Positions 54,894-64,000 of a DNA stretch of 64,000 nucleotides are shown here, one piece after another. The stretch is taken from positions 37,099,056 to 37,163,055 of the forward strand of contig NC_135187.1 of assembly GCF_041146795.1 (NCBI RefSeq), written 5' to 3'. Below the pieces are notes generated by a model that was not told the DNA's origin, did not search any database, and saw nothing but the letters and a program-made list of their open reading frames with translations. Position 1 is the stretch's first letter, and each line of letters opens with the position of its first letter. The stretch comes from Maylandia zebra. Taxonomy: Eukaryota; Chordata; Actinopteri; Cichliformes; Cichlidae. The position numbers were made by a program, and so were the translations under genes.

Positions 54894-55315
54894 TGAGCAG
54901 CCTAGGCAGGACAGAAGTGGATGTAGCTGTAATAGGAAAAGAACTATTGCTAACTTTTCTGTTAAGGCCTGATGCTTCTGAAATTCATAGCCAGCTCTGA
55001 CACGGTGTCATCAATCTTTGAATGCTGAAAAACCACAGTGTATTCGTTACGCCATTTTTCTCTACACCAACAACAACTCTTCGCGGGCAACAGTACTCTC
55101 GCGATATAAGAGAAAATAACAAGTTAACATGTACATTCTAGTTCCCATAAAGATTGCCTACAAGTAAAGACAAAATCGTTCTAGACTCGGCTACTATGGA
55201 TGTTTTCCCCGTGTTCAGTTTTTGAGCATGGTTAAAAACCTCATTTGTTCTGTTTGCTGTTTTTAATCTTGTGGGCTATTTGTTAGCTTTTTTTCTTGCC
55301 ATTTATAAAATGGGA
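54894..55315. other. No gene recognised
   Basis: I looked here for dynein exons upstream of 55612 and found none. Confidence 0.3.
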
Positions 55316-55370
55316 ATCAGAATGTCTTTATTGTCATTGTCGCAGGTACAACGAAATTAAAAGTGGTCTG
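55316..55370 (-). repeat. LINE 3' tail fragment
   Basis: GTCTTTATTGTCATTGTCGC then TACAACGAAATTA, the reverse of the tail also seen at 57885-57930. Confidence 0.5.
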
Positions 55371-55611
55371 TGATCAGTGCATCATCCATAGAATGTTTAC
55401 TACCTTAACTTGTGCTATACAAACACACATATACACACAGGCACAACTGATTTTAGAACATTTCTGTACTGTCTTTAAATGCCCCACACAAGGAACCCCT
55501 CATCTTAAATGGAACATTTTATTGTCAATGGTGACATGTCAGGAAAAAGTAACATACTAGCGTTTTATCAGCTGTTTAGTAGTCCCTTTATTCTTTCTTT
55601 TTCTTCTCAGG

Positions 55612-55633
55612 AAATGACCATTACAGCAGCATT
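55612..55633 (+). CDS. dnah6: Dynein exon 1, left part
   Basis: After acceptor TTCTTCTCAG it reads EMTITAA and the first base of the next codon; the sequence then breaks at the retroposon. Confidence 0.7.
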
Positions 55634-56858
55634 ATGGATTTGATCAACTGGTCTCTGAATGCTATTGACACCCTTTAACGAGAAGTCTGGGCTCGGGAGA
55701 GCCCGAGTGCCCTGGAGGGACTTTCCCTGCCGGATACACGATGGACGGGTGGCAGAGGATCGTGTGCTTGGCGGGACTGTCGATCGAGGACGCTGAAGAT
55801 ATCTACCTATTTGGAACCATGATAACAGGGTTCATGCTGATCGGAGCTGGCTTGGCCCTGGCTTATCGGAGAATTAAGAGAGCGGAACCGGCTGTTCAAA
55901 CCCCCACAAGGCTGCCCGCTGGGATTGGAACGACAGGTGCGACTTCTCATAAAGGGCTCACTGAAGGCAGCATGGTTAAGAGCTTGGAGGCGCTAACGGC
56001 TGCAGTGAATGCTCAGAATAACACCTTTGAGCGTATGTATGTTGGATTACATCAGGAAAGAATCAACTCAGAACAACATCTCTGGGCGGAGCTGGATTAC
56101 ACCTCGGATCAGTTGGCTGCGGTCGTGAGGTCTCAGAATCTGCTATGTGAGCAAAAAGAGTGACAAGTCCACAGAATCGACGGCTAATAACATCACGGAG
56201 AAGCTCGCAGCTATTAACGGGAGACTGAGAGATCAGTGTCGGAGTGTTAAAAACAGCTTGAAATTCTCAATTACCATCATAACCCGGCTACCCCTTCGGC
56301 GCCAGCTCAAGGCTGGAGCCGAACAACAACTCCCTGATAACGACTGTGTTGAGTCTGTTCCTTCCCATTCCCTGCAAGGCCACCTGGGTTGGCTGGAAGA
56401 CTGTTTACTTAGCCTGGCAGGGCGAAGGACACTGTCTCAGCTGAACTATGGACACGCACACACATGCATATACTGATACTGATAAGCACTCACCGACGCA
56501 TCACCCTCCCTACCCCGGATCCAACGCCACCTCCAACGCTTACCTCCCCTCTGATGTGGACATCAGGTCAGCTGGAGGTGCAGTCGAAGATTGCAGCGGT
56601 CCCAGATCAGATGTCCACACTGGAACTCTTTCCCATGTTGCTGTCTGTGTTTATTGTGCTGTGGTGTGTTGATATCTGTGCATTCCTGTATTATCCTTCT
56701 GTGTTGCACATTTCAATGTTTTTTTTCCTCACTACCTGGCCTGACCTGTCTCCCCAATGTGATGTTTGTATTGTATGTATGGTCGGCAAGGTCTGTCATC
56801 TCGGTTGTGGGCAAAAGACCTGCAGCTGACAAATAAAGGCTATCTCATCTCATCTCAT
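55634..56858 (+). mobile_element. Retroposon inserted within the dynein exon
   Basis: 1225 bp. Removing it joins ATTACAGCAGCAT to GTGCTCCTCC and restores EMTITAA-CAPPGGGRNPVTP. It ends ACAAATAAAGGCTATCTCAT with (ATCTC) repeats, a microsatellite-type 3' end, so it is a retroposon moved by target-primed reverse transcription. Target duplication is at most CAT. Encodes a small membrane/coiled-coil protein (55741-56163) and no reverse transcriptase. Family not recognised. Confidence 0.75.
55741..56163 (+). CDS. Retroposon-encoded putative membrane protein with coiled coil
   Basis: 140 codons starting MDGWQRIVCLAGLSIEDAED. Residues about 21-44 (IYLFGTMITGFMLIGAGLAL then AYRR) form one good transmembrane segment followed by positive charges, suggesting a cytoplasmic C-terminus. 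Residues about 75-140 (SLEALTAAVNAQNNTFERM, then QERINSEQHLWAELDYTSDQ) are helical with coiled-coil character. A short frame encoding MDLINWSLNAIDTL lies upstream at 55635-55676. A further helical frame follows from 56147, shifted by one, and may be the original C-terminus. No known domain recognised; whether it is translated is unknown. Confidence 0.4.
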   Translation: MDGWQRIVCLAGLSIEDAEDIYLFGTMITGFMLIGAGLALAYRRIKRAEPAVQTPTRLPAGIGTTGATSHKGLTEGSMVKSLEALTAAVNAQNNTFERMYVGLHQERINSEQHLWAELDYTSDQLAAVVRSQNLLCEQKE

Positions 56859-56969
56859 GTGCTCCTCCAGGAGGGGGGCGAAATCCTGTGACCCCCCAGA
56901 CTTATTCGCCACTTCAGCATGTTGTGCCTGCCAACACCCTCGGACACCAGCCTCAAACAGATCTTCAAA
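56859..56969 (+). CDS. dnah6: Dynein exon 1, right part (AAA3)
   Basis: CAPPGGGRNPVTP, then after one extra C in the C-run at 56892-56897, RLIRHFSMLCLPTP and LKQIFK, followed by donor GTCAGG. Confidence 0.75.
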
Positions 56970-57291
56970 GTCAGGAGTCCTCCAAAATACTGACACACAC
57001 ACACACGTATGTACAGAATTACATTTTAGGGAGTAGTGTTTACAGTTCAAAAGATATCATGTCCGTGCTTATTTATTATTAGTTTAAGTTAATCTTTATA
57101 GATTAAGAATTTCTATTGAGCAGTCTGTATGTGTTATATCCATGAACTTCTCTCTATGAGATGTTGCGCTTACTTTAAATGTTTTAATTTTTCCATTTCC
57201 TGCTCCGCCAGTATATGTAATTTTCAGTATACCCCTCTTCATGCCCTCTCATTTGTGTTACAACCACTTTTCATACCCAACCTCCTTCCAG

Positions 57292-57460
57292 GCTATACTG
57301 AACGGTTTCCTCTGAGTTTTCCCGGGCAGTGAAGGACTGTGCCGGACAGATTGTGCATGCAGCTGTGGAGATTTATAACTGTTTAAGTGTGGATCTGCTG
57401 CCCACCCCAGGAAGTCCCACTATGTTTTTAATCTCCGGGACCTCTCCAAGTGTGTCCAGG
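57292..57460 (+). CDS. dnah6: Dynein exon 2 (AAA3)
   Basis: AILNGFL, a frame change near 57312-57326, then AVKDCAGQIVHAAVEIYNCL and SVDLLPTP, one base missing near 57409-57412, then KSHYVFNLRDLSKCVQ-like sequence. Exon length is still in phase, so the two changes compensate. Confidence 0.75.
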
Positions 57461-57856
57461 GTGAGTATTCCTTTGGTCTTTGGCTGCTTTTTCAGTCATT
57501 GGCAATCCAGTCCTTGTATCTGACTATTTTCAGAAGAATTATTTTCTTGGTTTGTTAAGTGGCTTAACACTGACCTGTGAACCATTCAAGCAGGAAAAAC
57601 GCCCCTAACTCGAGAGCTGAACCAGCACAAGTCTACACATAACAAACTTCACAAAGAACCAATTTCAGATTGTATCTTCGGGCACTTTGTTACTAGCAGC
57701 CTGTTGCAAAAACTTTGTTGCCATCTCTTGAATCTATGAGAAATGCCAAAAATAACACAACTTGACCATCATAAAATTTTCTTTTACAATGACAAGGTGA
57801 GTCGCAGATTATTAACTGAATTTGACCTATCTCAGGATGGTGTGCCCTTAAATAAT

Positions 57857-58616
57857 AAGATAAGATAAGATAAGATAACTCTTTATTGTCATTGCACAGT
57901 CATACATAGTACAGTAGTACAATGAAATTGGAAAAACTGTCCTACGTCGGCACTACATATAACACAACACGACACGATATGACACATCACAACGTAACAA
58001 ACAACACAACACAGTATATTAACTTAGTATAAAAAAGAAGAATAAGTGTATGTGTATTGCACACTGTTATTATTGCACATTAATTATTATTGCACCTTGT
58101 TATAAATATAAATATTATTATTGTTATCGTTTTAAACATTGTTACCTCCCCCTAAAAAGTCCAGGGAGGTATCCAGTCAGGTCAGCTATTTACATTGATC
58201 AGGGCTATTGCCCTGTTGTAAAAGCTGTCCTTGAGTCTATTTGTTCGGGACCTCAGCAGCCTGAACCTCCTGCCAGACGGCAGCAGCTTAAACACCCGGT
58301 GTCCTGGGTGTGTGCAGTCCCGTAGGATGCTGCGTGCCCTCTTGAGACAGCGAGTGCTGTACAGGTCCTTCAGGGAGGGAAGAGGATGTCCAATGATTTT
58401 TTGGGCCATGTTGATGACCCTCTGGAGTGCCTTTCTGTGTGCTGTGGTGCAGCTGGAGAACCACACACCGATGCAATATGTCAGCACACTTTCAATGGAG
58501 CAGCGGTAGAAGACGGTCAGCAGCTCCTTCTTCAGGTCCATTTTTCTGAGGATTCTCAGAAAGTGGAGACGCTGTTGGGCCTGGGGAAACAGGACAAGTA
58601 GAGCACAAAAGAACAA
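57857..58616 (-). mobile_element. LINE 3' part in a dynein intron
   Basis: Begins with (TTATC)n reversed as GATAAGATAAGATAAGATAA. The minus strand at 58182-58590 encodes AQQRLHFLRILRKMDLKKEL, CSIESVLTYCIGVWFSSCT and [20 protein letters not shown], ending YNRAIALINVNS, the C-terminus of a Jockey-superfamily RT. The catalytic domain is missing by 5' truncation. Confidence 0.8.
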
Positions 58617-59062
58617 CCTACTTCAGATATAGTATCTAAATGTCCCTAAGAAATAGAAAAAATAAGCAGGAAAGTCCCGACACAGGACCTGAGAGATGCA
58701 TTTCAGTTTTTATCAGAAGTGGTCTCGTTGGAAGGGTGGGTCTCAAAAAGAATCCCGTTTTAAGAGAGGGAGAAATGGTTAAGGTTTGCTAAATTACACA
58801 AGAACTGGATTCCTCAGAGTTTGTACCTTGACATTATTGAAGTAGTGTGGGATCATCTATACAGGGAATGGAACAAGAGGAAGTCAAGCTATAAATAAGA
58901 GCTTTGAATACAAACCTGAAGAACTAATCCTGAAGACTACTTTCAAAAACTGCAAGAAGCTTACCTAAATGTTCAGACTGTGTTGAAGAATAAAGATAGT
59001 CTTACCAAATGTTGATTTTCAAGCTTGTTGTGAGTATATAGATTCTCTCTGTTGCTTACCAG

Positions 59063-59209
59063 GCATACTGCAGTGTGAGCCAAGTCAAGTAAGAGACAAG
59101 ACCCAGATCTTCCGCCTTTTCTGCCATGAATGCCAGCGCGTATTTCATGACCGACTCATCAACACCCAAGATAAGACCTACTTCAACACCATCATCTGTG
59201 AGATGGCCA
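59063..59209 (+). CDS. dnah6: Dynein exon 3
   Basis: GILQCEP, IFRLFCHECQRVFHDRLINT and TYFNTIICEMA, frame intact. The first codon is shared with the previous exon. Confidence 0.8.
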
Positions 59210-59328
59210 GTAAGAACTCTCACAGTCCAGCCTCAGACTTTATTTTCTGAATGCTCAGTTAATTGTTATCAGCTCAAAATCTATATTTTGGCTTTATGGG
59301 TTTAAGATAGACCTCTCTTTTTTGCCAG

Positions 59329-59400
59329 GGCGATATTTTGACATCCACTTAGTCTTCACATTTTGTGTCTCATCCCATAATATTTGGGGACTTCATCAAG
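59329..59400 (+). CDS. dnah6: Dynein exon 4, frameshifted
   Basis: RYFDIHL, then a shift of one base near 59349-59353, then SHPIIFGDFIK before donor GTCAGG. Confidence 0.65.
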
Positions 59401-59503
59401 GTCAGGTTTTCCTCCAAGCAACTTATTTACAGGTCGACACAAAAATACTGCACATTATTTACTGATTTGCAGTTTTGTTCTGTGTCCACCATCATCCACA
59501 TAG

Positions 59504-59655
59504 ATGCATGCAGAAAAAGATCGCCTGTATGAAGACCTGACAGACATGAATAAGATCCAGACTGTACTTCAGGACTATCTTGATGATTACAACATGACCT
59601 TCTCCAAGGAGATCAAGCTGGTTTTCTTCCAGGATGCCATTGAACATGTCTCCAG
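59504..59655 (+). CDS. dnah6: Dynein exon 5 (approach to AAA4)
   Basis: MHAEKDRLYEDLTDMNKIQT, LQDYLDDYNMTFSKEIKLVF and FQDAIEHVS, intact. Confidence 0.85.
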
Positions 59656-60069
59656 GTGAGTGAATTTAACTTGTTTTTGTGTAGTTTCTTAACAGGTAGT
59701 TGATTTATTTTAGCTGTAGTTGGGACAAACTGAGTCACCCAAAGGGCAGTAGCAATACGAGTGATTGTGTTTTATTGGTTTTAAAATAGAACATGCAATG
59801 CCTGTGATATGAACTGTAAGGATCATTTATCCATAATAATAATTACTTGCATGTCTAATTAGCAGACATACCTTCCACATAAGTAAAATGCAGGCACTCT
59901 TTCTTATTTTAACGTCAGTAATAAAATTTAACTGCACATCTTCCGATTTTTTTTTTTTTAAAGGTAGTGTCATATCAAGTGATTTGATCTGATTATAGCT
60001 AGCAGTACATTTTCTAAATGACACGATGCATGTGCCATATGGAACGAAATAATCTTATTATTTTTTTAG

Positions 60070-60301
60070 GATTGCTCGTATAATTCGCCAGGAGCGAGGC
60101 AATGCCTTGTTAGTCGGGGTGGGAGGTACAGGCAAGCAGTCACTCACTCGCTTGGCAGCCCACATGTGTGGGTGCCGCTGCTTTGAGATTGAGTTGAGCG
60201 GAGGGTACAACTATGACAGCTTCCATGAAGACTTGAGGAGGCTCTACAAGATGGCTGGTGTGGAGGGCAAAGATATGGTGCTCCTCTTTACAGATACTCA
60301 G
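60070..60301 (+). CDS. dnah6: Dynein exon 6 (AAA4 P-loop)
   Basis: RIARIIRQERGNALLVGVGG and TGKQSLTRLAAHMCG give the Walker A loop GVGGTGKQS; then YNYDSFHEDLRRLYKMAGVE and LLFTDTQ. Intact. Confidence 0.9.
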
Positions 60302-60388
60302 GTATTGCAAAAAGATTGAGCCACAAAAATACTTACAGTATTTAAGTTTCTGTGTACTTACTGTGTTTAACTATTAAATCTGTTGTAG

Positions 60389-60542
60389 ATTGTAGTAGAA
60401 GATTTTTTGGAGGATTTAAACAACATGCTTAAACTCTGGTGAGGTGCCTAACCTCTTTGAAAAAGATGAGCTAGAACAAGTGCTTGCTGCTACCCGCCCT
60501 AAAGCCAGAGAGGCTGGAATCAGTGAAGAGAGCAGGGATGAG
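60389..60542 (+). CDS. dnah6: Dynein exon 7, one extra base
   Basis: IVVEDFLEDLNNML, then an A-run at 60431-60433 with one A too many, giving an early stop in place of NSGEVPNLFEKDELEQVLAA, which continues in the next frame. 154 bp instead of the 153 that phase requires. Confidence 0.85.
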
Positions 60543-61169
60543 GTATGTACGGTACTTATGTAAATACATAAGGTTTATAAAACATGTGTCATTTAAGCAG
60601 TAACTTTTAAATACAGCATATCTGCATTATTTGTCAGAAAATAAATGAATTAAAATTTTCTGTGAAAGTTAGGATAAAGTTACAGTTAGCAAAAATGAAA
60701 AATACAATCTCGACACAGAACTTTGTTTTGGATACGACCCAAAGTGTTTAACAAATTAGAATGTGGGACGAACGTGGAGTCACGAATGTTCATATCCTGA
60801 AAAGTGTTGTGGCTTTTCTTAAATGTAGGAAATCATTCTTTAACTACCAGATATAATCACTTAGTGTTTTCAGCGACAGTACATAGATCTTCAACAAGAT
60901 AAAAAAAAATGAAATTAAACATTAATTTCTAATATGAGAGAAGGATGATGAAGCCTGACCTTTGAGTTGTTTAAAGAAGATAATAAACACCTAGCAAAGC
61001 ATCTGAGATTCCCACTATGGGCTAAAATTTCCACAGACTGTATGAAAGCAGACAGTTAAAATCAGTGTCCCAGGCAAAAGGAAAGAACACATGAGAGCTG
61101 ATGCTGTTTGCCTGTTGTGATCTTCTATGTGCGTGTGTCTTTTTTACATGTCTGTCATGGTGCGTTCAG

Positions 61170-61310
61170 GTGTTCCAGTTTTTCATCTCCCGTGTTCAAG
61201 AAAAACGACACATTGTGCTGTGTATGAGCCCTGTGGGCGATGCTTTCAGGTCCCGATGTCGCATGTTTCCTTCACTGGTTCACTGCTGCACTATTGACTG
61301 GTTTGTGCAG
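61170..61310 (+). CDS. dnah6: Dynein exon 8 (AAA4)
   Basis: VFQFFISRVQEKRHIVLCMS and PVGDAFRSRCRMFPSLVHCC, then TIDWFVQ. Intact. Confidence 0.9.
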
Positions 61311-61731
61311 GTATACTGATATATATGAATCACTCAGTATATACGTCACTACCCTTGTCGATGGAATCACTCTTGTTCATGTAAAATATTTCTAAAATAA
61401 CCCTTTTTTTTTATTTACACCACCGTCCCTTTAGATTGAATTCTTTTTCATAATCTATAGCTTTAAGGTAATCCTATTCATGTCCCTTTTTATAGAAAAA
61501 AATAGTTTCATCATCGTCATGAAAGTTGTAGTTTATATTTTTTAAGCTTCTTTTGAACTTATTACTTTAAAAAAATCTTTTTACAATTTCTATTTTTAAA
61601 TAAATGTTTTATGTCCATCTGCTGAATAACTGTTCAGTTGACAGGAGCTAAAGGTCAAAGCTACAAATCGTTGTCCTCGCTGCTAACTTTATGTCACTTT
61701 CCTCTCTTTCGCTGTACGTTCTGGTGCTCAG

Positions 61732-61974
61732 TGGCCCCGGGAGGCGCTGCGCTCTGTCTCTGAGGCCTTTTTCCAGAATGTGGACTTTGGCAATGAGAAG
61801 CTGAAGCAGAACATCTCTGCGATGTGTGTCGAGATACACGTTAGTGTCACTGAAATGGCTGAGTGCTTCTACTTAGAGCTGAGACGCCGGTACTACACCA
61901 CACCTACCTCCTATCTAGAGCTTATCAACCTCTACCTCAGCATGCTTGGCAACAAGAGACAGCAGTTAGTTCTG
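61732..61974 (+). CDS. dnah6: Dynein exon 9
   Basis: [20 protein letters not shown] to [20 protein letters not shown] and QLVL. Intact. Confidence 0.9.
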
Positions 61975-62182
61975 GTATGTCAACACAATTATGGGCGATT
62001 TTTCACATATGTTGTTGATGATGAATCGTTACCTGATATTGTGTAGGAAAAATAGCAGCTAGAGACATTAGCTGGTGGTGAGTACTCATAGTCAGTTTTA
62101 TTTTTACTGTGACTGTAATGCATCATGAGTTATGTCAATAATATCAAACATGATAATTATGTATGCGTGTGTTACTGTATAG

Positions 62183-62350
62183 GCCAGGGATCGTGTAAAG
62201 AATGGTGTCACTAAGCTGCTGGAGACCAATGAGCTTGTAGACAAAATGAAGGTGGACCTTTCTGCTCTGGAGCCAGTCCTCAAACAAAAATCTACTGATG
62301 TCGATGCCCTCATGGAGAAATTGGCTGTAGGTCAAGACAAGGCTGATGAG
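62183..62350 (+). CDS. dnah6: Dynein exon 10 (start of stalk helix)
   Basis: [20 protein letters not shown] to [16 protein letters not shown], the coiled-coil stalk start. Intact. Confidence 0.9.
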
Positions 62351-62477
62351 GTCTGTCTGTGTTTTATCACAAAACTTTCAAAAACGTGTCTGATGTTGCC
62401 TATATTTCAATTATAAATCATGGTAACTCTTTGTCATTACTTCATGAGCATAACTAAAATAATTCTCCTTGTCACAG

Positions 62478-62712
62478 GTACATAAAGTAGTAGAAGAAGA
62501 TGAGGCACTGGCCCGAGTTAAGGCTGAAGAAACCCAGGCCATTGCAGATGATGCACAGAGGGACTTAGATCAGGCTCTGCCAGCTTTAGAGAGTGCCAAC
62601 CAGGCCCTCAGATCTCTTAACAGGGCTGACATCTCTGAGATCAAGATGTTCACTAAACCCCCAGCCCTGTGATGACTGTCATGGAGTCTGTCTGCATCTT
62701 GCTTGATTGCAA
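62478..62712 (+). CDS. dnah6: Dynein exon 11, one base missing
   Basis: [20 protein letters not shown] to [12 protein letters not shown], then a G is missing near 62669, giving TGA in place of [14 protein letters not shown], which follows in the next frame. Confidence 0.85.
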
Positions 62713-63140
62713 GTGAGTGTGCACTATTTTCTTAAAAAAATAATAGATAAATAAATAGCTTCTTAACATGTTACACTTTTATTAGGTATCCACCCTGCAC
62801 TGGTGATGGTTTCTAAAAGTGCAACTCTTTATAATCACAATAATGTAATAACTTTATCACTCCTTCACTTCAACGGGACTATTTTTTCAATCTTATGTAT
62901 TTTGCGTTAAACAGAGATGACTTGCAGATTTCACCATTCACTAATCTACTGCATTGTTGATCTGAATTAAATCTTCACAATATCCTCTTTGGGATTTTGA
63001 AACTTGCTGTTCTGCCCAAAGAATTTTCATTACTTTGAAAAGCTCAACTAATGTCACGGTCTAATGTATCGAGCAACCGTGACATTTCTTTAGTCCTTAT
63101 TTGTTAACAGTGTCTCACTAACTTTCTTCTCTCCTAACAG

Positions 63141-63285
63141 ACCAGACTGGCTAAGTGCCAAGCAATTACTGGGCGATCCCAACTTTCTCAGGCGTCTGAC
63201 AGAATATGACAAGGACAATATCAAACCTAGGATCCTGCTGAAACTACAAAAATACATCAATGACCCTAATTTCATGCCTGAAAAG
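63141..63285 (+). CDS. dnah6: Dynein exon 12
   Basis: [20 protein letters not shown] to [17 protein letters not shown]. Intact. Confidence 0.9.
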
Positions 63286-63471
63286 GTCAGTTTGGATATT
63301 TTGGCAGATTAAAAAATGTCAAAGTACAAACAGAGCCAGTGAAAATAACATCTTCTTACTGTATCATTATGACTAAATGTGGTTTTTCAGATAGTATAAC
63401 CTATCAGAAATTCTGAAATGTTTCAGTATGTTTTTGCTTGGCCTAGTTTCTTATTGTGTCGCTCTTATTAG

Positions 63472-63521
63472 GTGGAAAAGGCATCAAGGGCGTGCAAGTC
63501 CATGTGCATGTGGGTCAGAGC
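63472..63521 (+). CDS. dnah6: Dynein exon 13, cut by a hAT
   Basis: VEKASRACKSMCMWVRA, then TAGGGATGGGTACCGG of the transposon replaces the expected continuation. Confidence 0.8.
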
Positions 63522-64000
63522 TAGGGATGGGTACCGGTGTCCGGTGCCATGATGGCACCGGTTCTGACATAAACGGTAGTAACCAGACCGAAAAGCAGCG
63601 CACATTTCGGTGCTTTTTTTTTCCTGAGATGTCACACACTTTGGATTCTAGCCAATCATTTTACGTTTCCGAGGATAGTAGGCGGGCCCAGGTACGTACG
63701 TTCTTTTAGAGCAGAGCTACAGATTAAAAATGCCCAAGGCGAAGCGGTTAAAAGTCTGGCTGTACTTCACAGCAAAATATGCAAACTCAGCAGCAACAAG
63801 TGCTTTAAGCTGATACTGTGATACTGTCAAAGGAGGTAACACCTCAAATCCGATGAAACACCTGGCGACGCATAGAGTTTTTTTTAAAAGCCCAGAAATG
63901 CGCCGTATTTGATAGCTTGCTGCGAGACCTCACACCGAGCACATCTACTGCGGGTGTGGTGCCTGTTATCGAGTTAGCAACATCCCCCAAAAACACGAAG
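63522..64000 (+). mobile_element. BED-type hAT inserted within the dynein exon (left part)
   Basis: Begins TAGGGATGGGTACCGG, a hAT-like terminus. From 63731 it encodes MPKAKRLKVWLYFTAKYANS, and after a stop and frame change KGGNTSNPMKHLATHRV (second half of a BED finger), then LKAQKCAVFDSLLRDLTPST. This is the N-terminus of a hAT transposase, already decayed. The candidate target octamer GTCAGAGC precedes it; the right end is outside the window. Confidence 0.75.

Follow-up and report, generated by a model that had tools for sequence, protein, structure and literature searches.

A retroposon-interrupted exon in a partial second copy of DNAH6 in the genome of Maylandia zebra

The interrupted exon and its uninterrupted counterpart

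The stretch of DNA analysed here (64,000 nucleotides of contig C21, referred to as the window) carries on its forward strand a coding exon of a dynein heavy chain that is split into two pieces. The 5′ piece (55611–55632, +, reading EMTITAA) is identical to C6:41257087–41257108, with 0 differences, and the 3′ piece (56859–56969, +) has one extra base near position 56891 in comparison with C6; the splice acceptor TTCTTCTCAG and the donor GTCAGG flanking the interrupted exon have both been kept. Between the pieces lies an insertion of 1226 bp (55633–56858, +), a 5′-truncated retroposon that belongs to a dispersed repeat and is missing at the corresponding empty site on C6. The preliminary description of this locus had proposed a 1.2-kb retroposon within a dynein heavy chain exon with acceptor and donor still present; the two splice sites are seen in the sequence, and the insertion is confirmed by the empty site together with the dispersed copies described below. 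The right end of the insert and the end of the exon were also placed correctly, but the insert starts at 55633 instead of 55634 and the exon at 55611 instead of 55612; since 55633 is a second T, the earlier left boundary of the insert fell one base short. Three bases, CAT, are common to both flanks of the insert; they may be a target-site duplication but are equally attributable to the tail of the element.

With the 434-base left flank of the insert as query, the whole genome yielded one long second copy, the remaining matches being pieces of about 60–160 bases. The window segment 55324–55632 corresponds to C6:41256800–41257108 with 98% identity over the 309 bp of the left flank, and on the other side of the insert positions 56856–57856 align to C6:41257106–41258140. 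As the preliminary description had contemplated, the genome thus holds a second DNAH6 in which this exon is found uninterrupted: on C6 it occupies 41257087–41257218 (132 bp) and reads EMTITAACAPPGGGRNPVSPRFIRHFSMLCLPTPSDTSLKQIFK, and its stop-free segment C6:41257084–41257188 matches a portion of the AAA_7 domain.

For the identity of the gene, a query of 405 amino acids was joined by the authors from the C6 exons. Its best matches were three DNAH6 chains, with E values of 1e-225, 7.7e-224 and 1e-222, far ahead of the next dynein at 2.5e-146. The chains concerned (9d2f_T, 8j07_g5 and 9fqr_Xz) are presumably from mammalian axonemes, and the C6 exons align continuously to residues 2152–2560 of 8j07_g5; the window copy, in contrast to DNAH6, has exons only from this region onward and carries frameshifts in addition to the insert. 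Searched against the whole genome, the same 405-residue piece matched the C6 locus at 65–98%, C21 at 56–88% and other places at no more than 62% (89 of 89 candidates scored). Judged by its sequence, the interrupted gene is DNAH6 (dynein axonemal heavy chain 6), in agreement with the earlier assignment. It should be noted that the C6 exons, as well as 14 upstream pieces, were selected as open, dynein-like frames on C6, so that their presence and openness on that contig is given by construction; independent support for the chosen exons comes from the continuous DNAH6 alignment for seven of them and from family matches for some others, and an open frame counts as independent evidence only in those that align continuously to DNAH6.

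The preliminary description had also allowed for the segment being an intron with fortuitous peptide similarity at its flanks, and a related reading would have the insert spliced out to leave a working exon. Since the exon runs straight through on C6, the 1.2 kb is inserted sequence in comparison with that contig, not an intron. The peptide is continuous with DNAH6 on both sides, a GT start and an AG end were not found at the insert boundaries, and the frame is disrupted downstream, so both versions are considered to have next to no chance of being correct. Excision of the insert does restore the continuous dynein reading claimed earlier, but only up to VTP; after this motif the frame of the window exon is broken again by the additional base near 56891.

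The inserted element and its relatives

When the insert was compared with the genome, 40 of 1723 candidates were scored and yielded 46 matching pieces, among them that of the window itself; of the other places in this set, the best seven match nearly the whole 1225-bp query at 95–97%; these pieces and near-full-length places together show that the match is not due to chance. A search of a phage collection with the insert gave no match and was uninformative. The window copy and seven others were fetched with their flanks and aligned. Six of the seven begin at a common 5′ point, about 145 bp upstream of where the window copy begins; in the seventh the beginning lies about 17 bp further downstream than in these six. 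In all eight copies AATAAAGG precedes a terminal series of variable CTCAT/ATC repeats, which is shortest in the copy L008; in the window this 3′ end, with AATAAA and a (CTCAT)n tail, is located at 56832–56858 (+), as seen in the sequence and in the eight-copy alignment. Neither long terminal nor terminal inverted repeats of at least 10 bp were present at the ends of the insert. A common 3′ end, variable 5′ ends and a simple-repeat tail without terminal repeats characterize a non-LTR retroposon, and the dispersed copies and the tandem-repeat 3′ tail bear out the earlier view that the insert is a retroposon.

No reverse transcriptase family was recognized in the three open reading frames of the window copy or in the two of copy L005. 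ARAGORN predicted 0 tRNA genes in six loci (6 of the 8 copies), a degenerate tRNA-like head being conceivable, and Rfam gave no match in the window at the gathering score. The insert looks like a 5′-truncated copy of a dispersed, non-autonomous non-LTR retroposon of 1.4 kb, for which another element would presumably have acted as enzyme donor.

A separate LINE-like fragment with a TTATC/CTTAT-repeat tail is found in the following intron on the opposite strand (57860–58622, −). Recognized from its ORF, its sequence and Pfam, it is foreign to the DNAH6 copy, and the alignment of C21 with C6 is interrupted around it at 57856–58627. Its ORF matches the Pfam family ALKBH8_N, which is often matched by the C-termini of fish LINEs. 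A 3′ end borrowed by the retroposon from this fragment was considered and rejected: the alignment score of 21 is also reached by 17 of 2700 window pieces and is therefore not evidence for such borrowing. No partner L2/CR1 LINE sharing the 3′ end of the element was found.

Two known systems may be compared with the element. HAL1 (half-L1) has ORF1 without ORF2; the present element resembles it as a retroposon that keeps a first ORF without a reverse transcriptase, but its tail is different and no parent LINE was found. In fish, L2-type LINEs mobilise SINEs, HAmo LINE2 and HAmo SINE being an example (PMC2653535). The element is similar in its short tandem 3′ repeats and in that no reverse transcriptase was seen, and it is unlike these systems in its length of about 1.4 kb, in having no tRNA head in six loci and in the ORF of about 200 codons found in its relatives.

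The ORF of the window copy (55741–56163, +; 140 codons, MDGWQR...CEQKE) contains a hydrophobic stretch and is a shortened member of a wider ORF set. In L005 the frame has 177 codons (L005:1501–2031), of which the window copy keeps 140, and four bases near its start are missing in seven of the eight copies. Compared with the genome, the L005 ORF gave 1443 candidates; among the 150 scored, many were open over approximately 205–214 codons at 69–82% identity, and all five relatives fetched (L040–L044) carry an ORF of 202–211 codons. Among these relatives, the family scan covered eight ORFs of L040, L042 and L043 and detected no reverse transcriptase family; L041 and L044 have no further long ORF in the orientation of the element, and in L040–L044 no ORF of reverse transcriptase size follows downstream on that strand within the 2.5–6 kb examined. 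The length of about 1.5 kb is based on L040, L041 and L042, the 3′ end of L043 not having been located and the 5′ end of L044 being cut by the slice.

The tail repeats differ among these elements: GATACT in L040, CTTGAA in L041, GATTCT in L044 and CTCAT in the window family. L040 and L042 are 79% identical, and L041 and L042 88% identical, over 1.5 kb with the 3′ regions included, and the differing tails need not mean an exchange of 3′ ends. L005 matches L040–L043 well over its first 1010–1140 bases; beyond that, three of the four match it only in some 100 bases at close to 70%, and L043 has no match.

No Pfam family scored above the cut-off for the ORF; coiled-coil families gave the highest of the weak scores, and the best PDB match (E 0.12) was taken as chance. 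In the predicted protein of about 200 codons, the N-terminal half would be conserved and contain a single hydrophobic stretch resembling a membrane helix, and the C-terminal half would be variable and may form a coiled coil. Pairwise dN/dS values of the ORF were 0.58–1.14 (five copies, 10 pairs, L044 left out), with 0.32–1.51 in the first 100 columns and 0.46–1.30 in the remainder; selection on the protein of the element seems possible but unproved. The ORF set may represent either remnants of the first ORF of a LINE or a lineage of its own.

The broadest reading would make the insert a member of a large superfamily of retroposons of approximately 1.4–1.5 kb, lacking a reverse transcriptase and having one open frame of about 200 codons, whose branches carry different 3′ tail repeats and whose protein might therefore allow several LINE partners. 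This is regarded as unlikely, and was placed slightly lower than it would otherwise be because in three relatives the 3′ regions are common to all except for the tail repeat; the part concerning tail exchange is therefore weakened. If it is true that a retroposon lineage without reverse transcriptase keeps a selected protein, the question arises what a membrane-type protein does for a LINE parasite. The ORF set is the only part of the locus that might reward more work. Among the titles listed in the literature searches, none concerned a fish retroposon without reverse transcriptase and with such an ORF; the element may already be catalogued, for example in Repbase.

Extent, decay and probable history of the C21 copy

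For the extent of the duplication, 124 kb of C21 were aligned with 140 kb of C6. Collinear blocks, introns included, start at window position 55130 (C6:41256337), where the homology has a sharp left edge within the intron preceding the interrupted exon. In the window the segmental duplicate covers 55130–64000 (+; blastn blocks), that is, the middle and 3′ part of DNAH6, the other copy being C6:41256337–41281914. It runs past the window to at least window-equivalent position 106387 (C6:41281914), which is a lower bound, the right end not having been reached with certainty. In the 17 blocks that reach as far as 103971, the two copies have 542 differences in 17373 aligned bases, a divergence of about 3.1%. 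Long dissimilar stretches separate one collinear block from the next, and what takes up about 24 kb on C6 extends over about 49 kb on C21. Introns retained at this divergence indicate duplication as DNA and rule out an mRNA retrocopy of DNAH6.

None of the 14 upstream exon pieces read from C6, which cover AAA1, AAA2, the linker and the tail, is present on the 124-kb slice of C21, although this slice reaches 75 kb further upstream. Among the downstream pieces read from C6, 7 of 10 are found on the slice and an eighth (piece C8) matches in the next 7 kb; pieces C1 and C9, of which C9 encodes the C-terminus, had no match in the part of C21 that was retrieved.

The preliminary description had offered two meanings, a null allele or a non-functional duplicate. 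If the insertion were a null allele of the only DNAH6 of the species, with C6 as the other haplotype, the 98% identity beside the insertion would be expected; C21 and C6, however, are separate contigs of 38 and 45 Mb, the homology ends abruptly at 55130 with the upstream pieces missing, and the 3.1% divergence, the long differing stretches and the twofold spread of the C21 sequence do not suit two alleles. This alternative is judged extremely unlikely, and the duplicate is the alternative that has support: C6 has the exon uninterrupted, and C21 lacks the upstream exons and carries additional frameshifts. The characterization of the exonic insertion as strongly disruptive is not applicable, because the copy is without its upstream exons in any case.

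The decay of the copy was followed by comparing 17 exons (2796 bases, 12 of the exons in the window) between C21 and C6, which are 96–100% identical when 30-bp borders are included and the insert is set aside. Six frameshifting indels, not counting the insert, occur in 5 of the 17 exons of C21; two of them, small deletions near 57313 and 57412, are in the next DNAH6 exon (AILNGFL...SKCVQ; 57292–57459, +). That all six involve 1–2 bases, and that one lies in a run of C, would be in keeping with sequencing or assembly errors, but the other five do not fall in any run of at least four equal bases, and this explanation is held to be very unlikely. The conclusion is in any case independent of the frameshifts, because the upstream exon pieces are missing.

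Substitutions over the 17 exons comprise 33 non-synonymous and 20 synonymous changes, a ratio of 1.65 compared with the approximately 2.44 to 1 expected without selection on either copy, which fits one constrained and one free copy. No stop codon arose by substitution in the 17 exons, where about 1.7 would be expected among 53 changes without selection. This, the several C21 exons still in frame and the modest age implied by the divergence could speak for a young functional gene encoding a truncated dynein or a regulatory RNA. Such a gene, however, would have to manage without the AAA1, AAA2, linker and tail pieces missing from the slice and with six frameshifts and an insert in its first remaining exon, and the substitution ratio is like that between a constrained copy and a free one; it is accordingly held to be very improbable. 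With or without the insert, the window copy, to go by its predicted coding capacity, could not make a whole dynein. Its introns are retained, it has disabling lesions and its relative in the same genome is free of them. From an ordinary duplicated (non-processed) pseudogene, with kept introns, a partial gene, frameshifts and an uninterrupted relative, it shows no notable difference.

The DNAH6 copy on C21 is very probably an upstream-less, decayed segmental duplicate carrying a retroposon insertion, the uninterrupted gene being located on C6. In the history proposed here, a DNAH6 stretch that starts within the intron preceding the interrupted exon and nearly reaches the end of the gene would have been copied as DNA, in the direction from C6 to C21, as we infer. 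Because its upstream exons were left behind, the C21 copy would have been non-functional from birth, and would then have decayed through the six small frameshifts in the examined exons and many further insertions. The non-autonomous retroposon would have inserted itself into the foremost exon left in the copy through target-primed reverse transcription, presumably using the enzymes of another element, and would have been 5′-truncated on insertion, leaving its repeat tail at the 3′ junction. In the 1192 columns of the eight fetched copies, 18 differences (1.5%) are private to the window copy, whereas the duplicates differ by 3.1%, a comparison that loosely bounds the age of the insertion and gives no ordering relative to the frameshifts.

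The insertion of a retroposon into a DNAH6 duplicate that is headless and frameshifted is a real and ordinary finding of genome decay, and no paper on a fish DNAH6 pseudogene was among the titles listed in a literature search. The locus illustrates that a disrupted exon of a motor gene, read in isolation, can belong to a decayed duplicate, and the C21 copy could mislead annotation of the genome into a false second DNAH6.

Two further observations concern the dynein sequences of this genome. One exon with its borders (window 63112–63318; 207 bp) shows 100% identity of C21 to C6 in a surrounding block that is about 3% different, which may be due to chance or to local gene conversion. Another dynein heavy chain is present in three copies with equal or nearly equal AAA_7 and DHC_N2 exon scores (C12:7669103–7669519, +; C12:7777729–7778145, −; C11:11768122–11768538, −); the two copies on C12 are in opposite orientation, and the threefold occurrence may reflect either a recent duplication or an effect of assembly.
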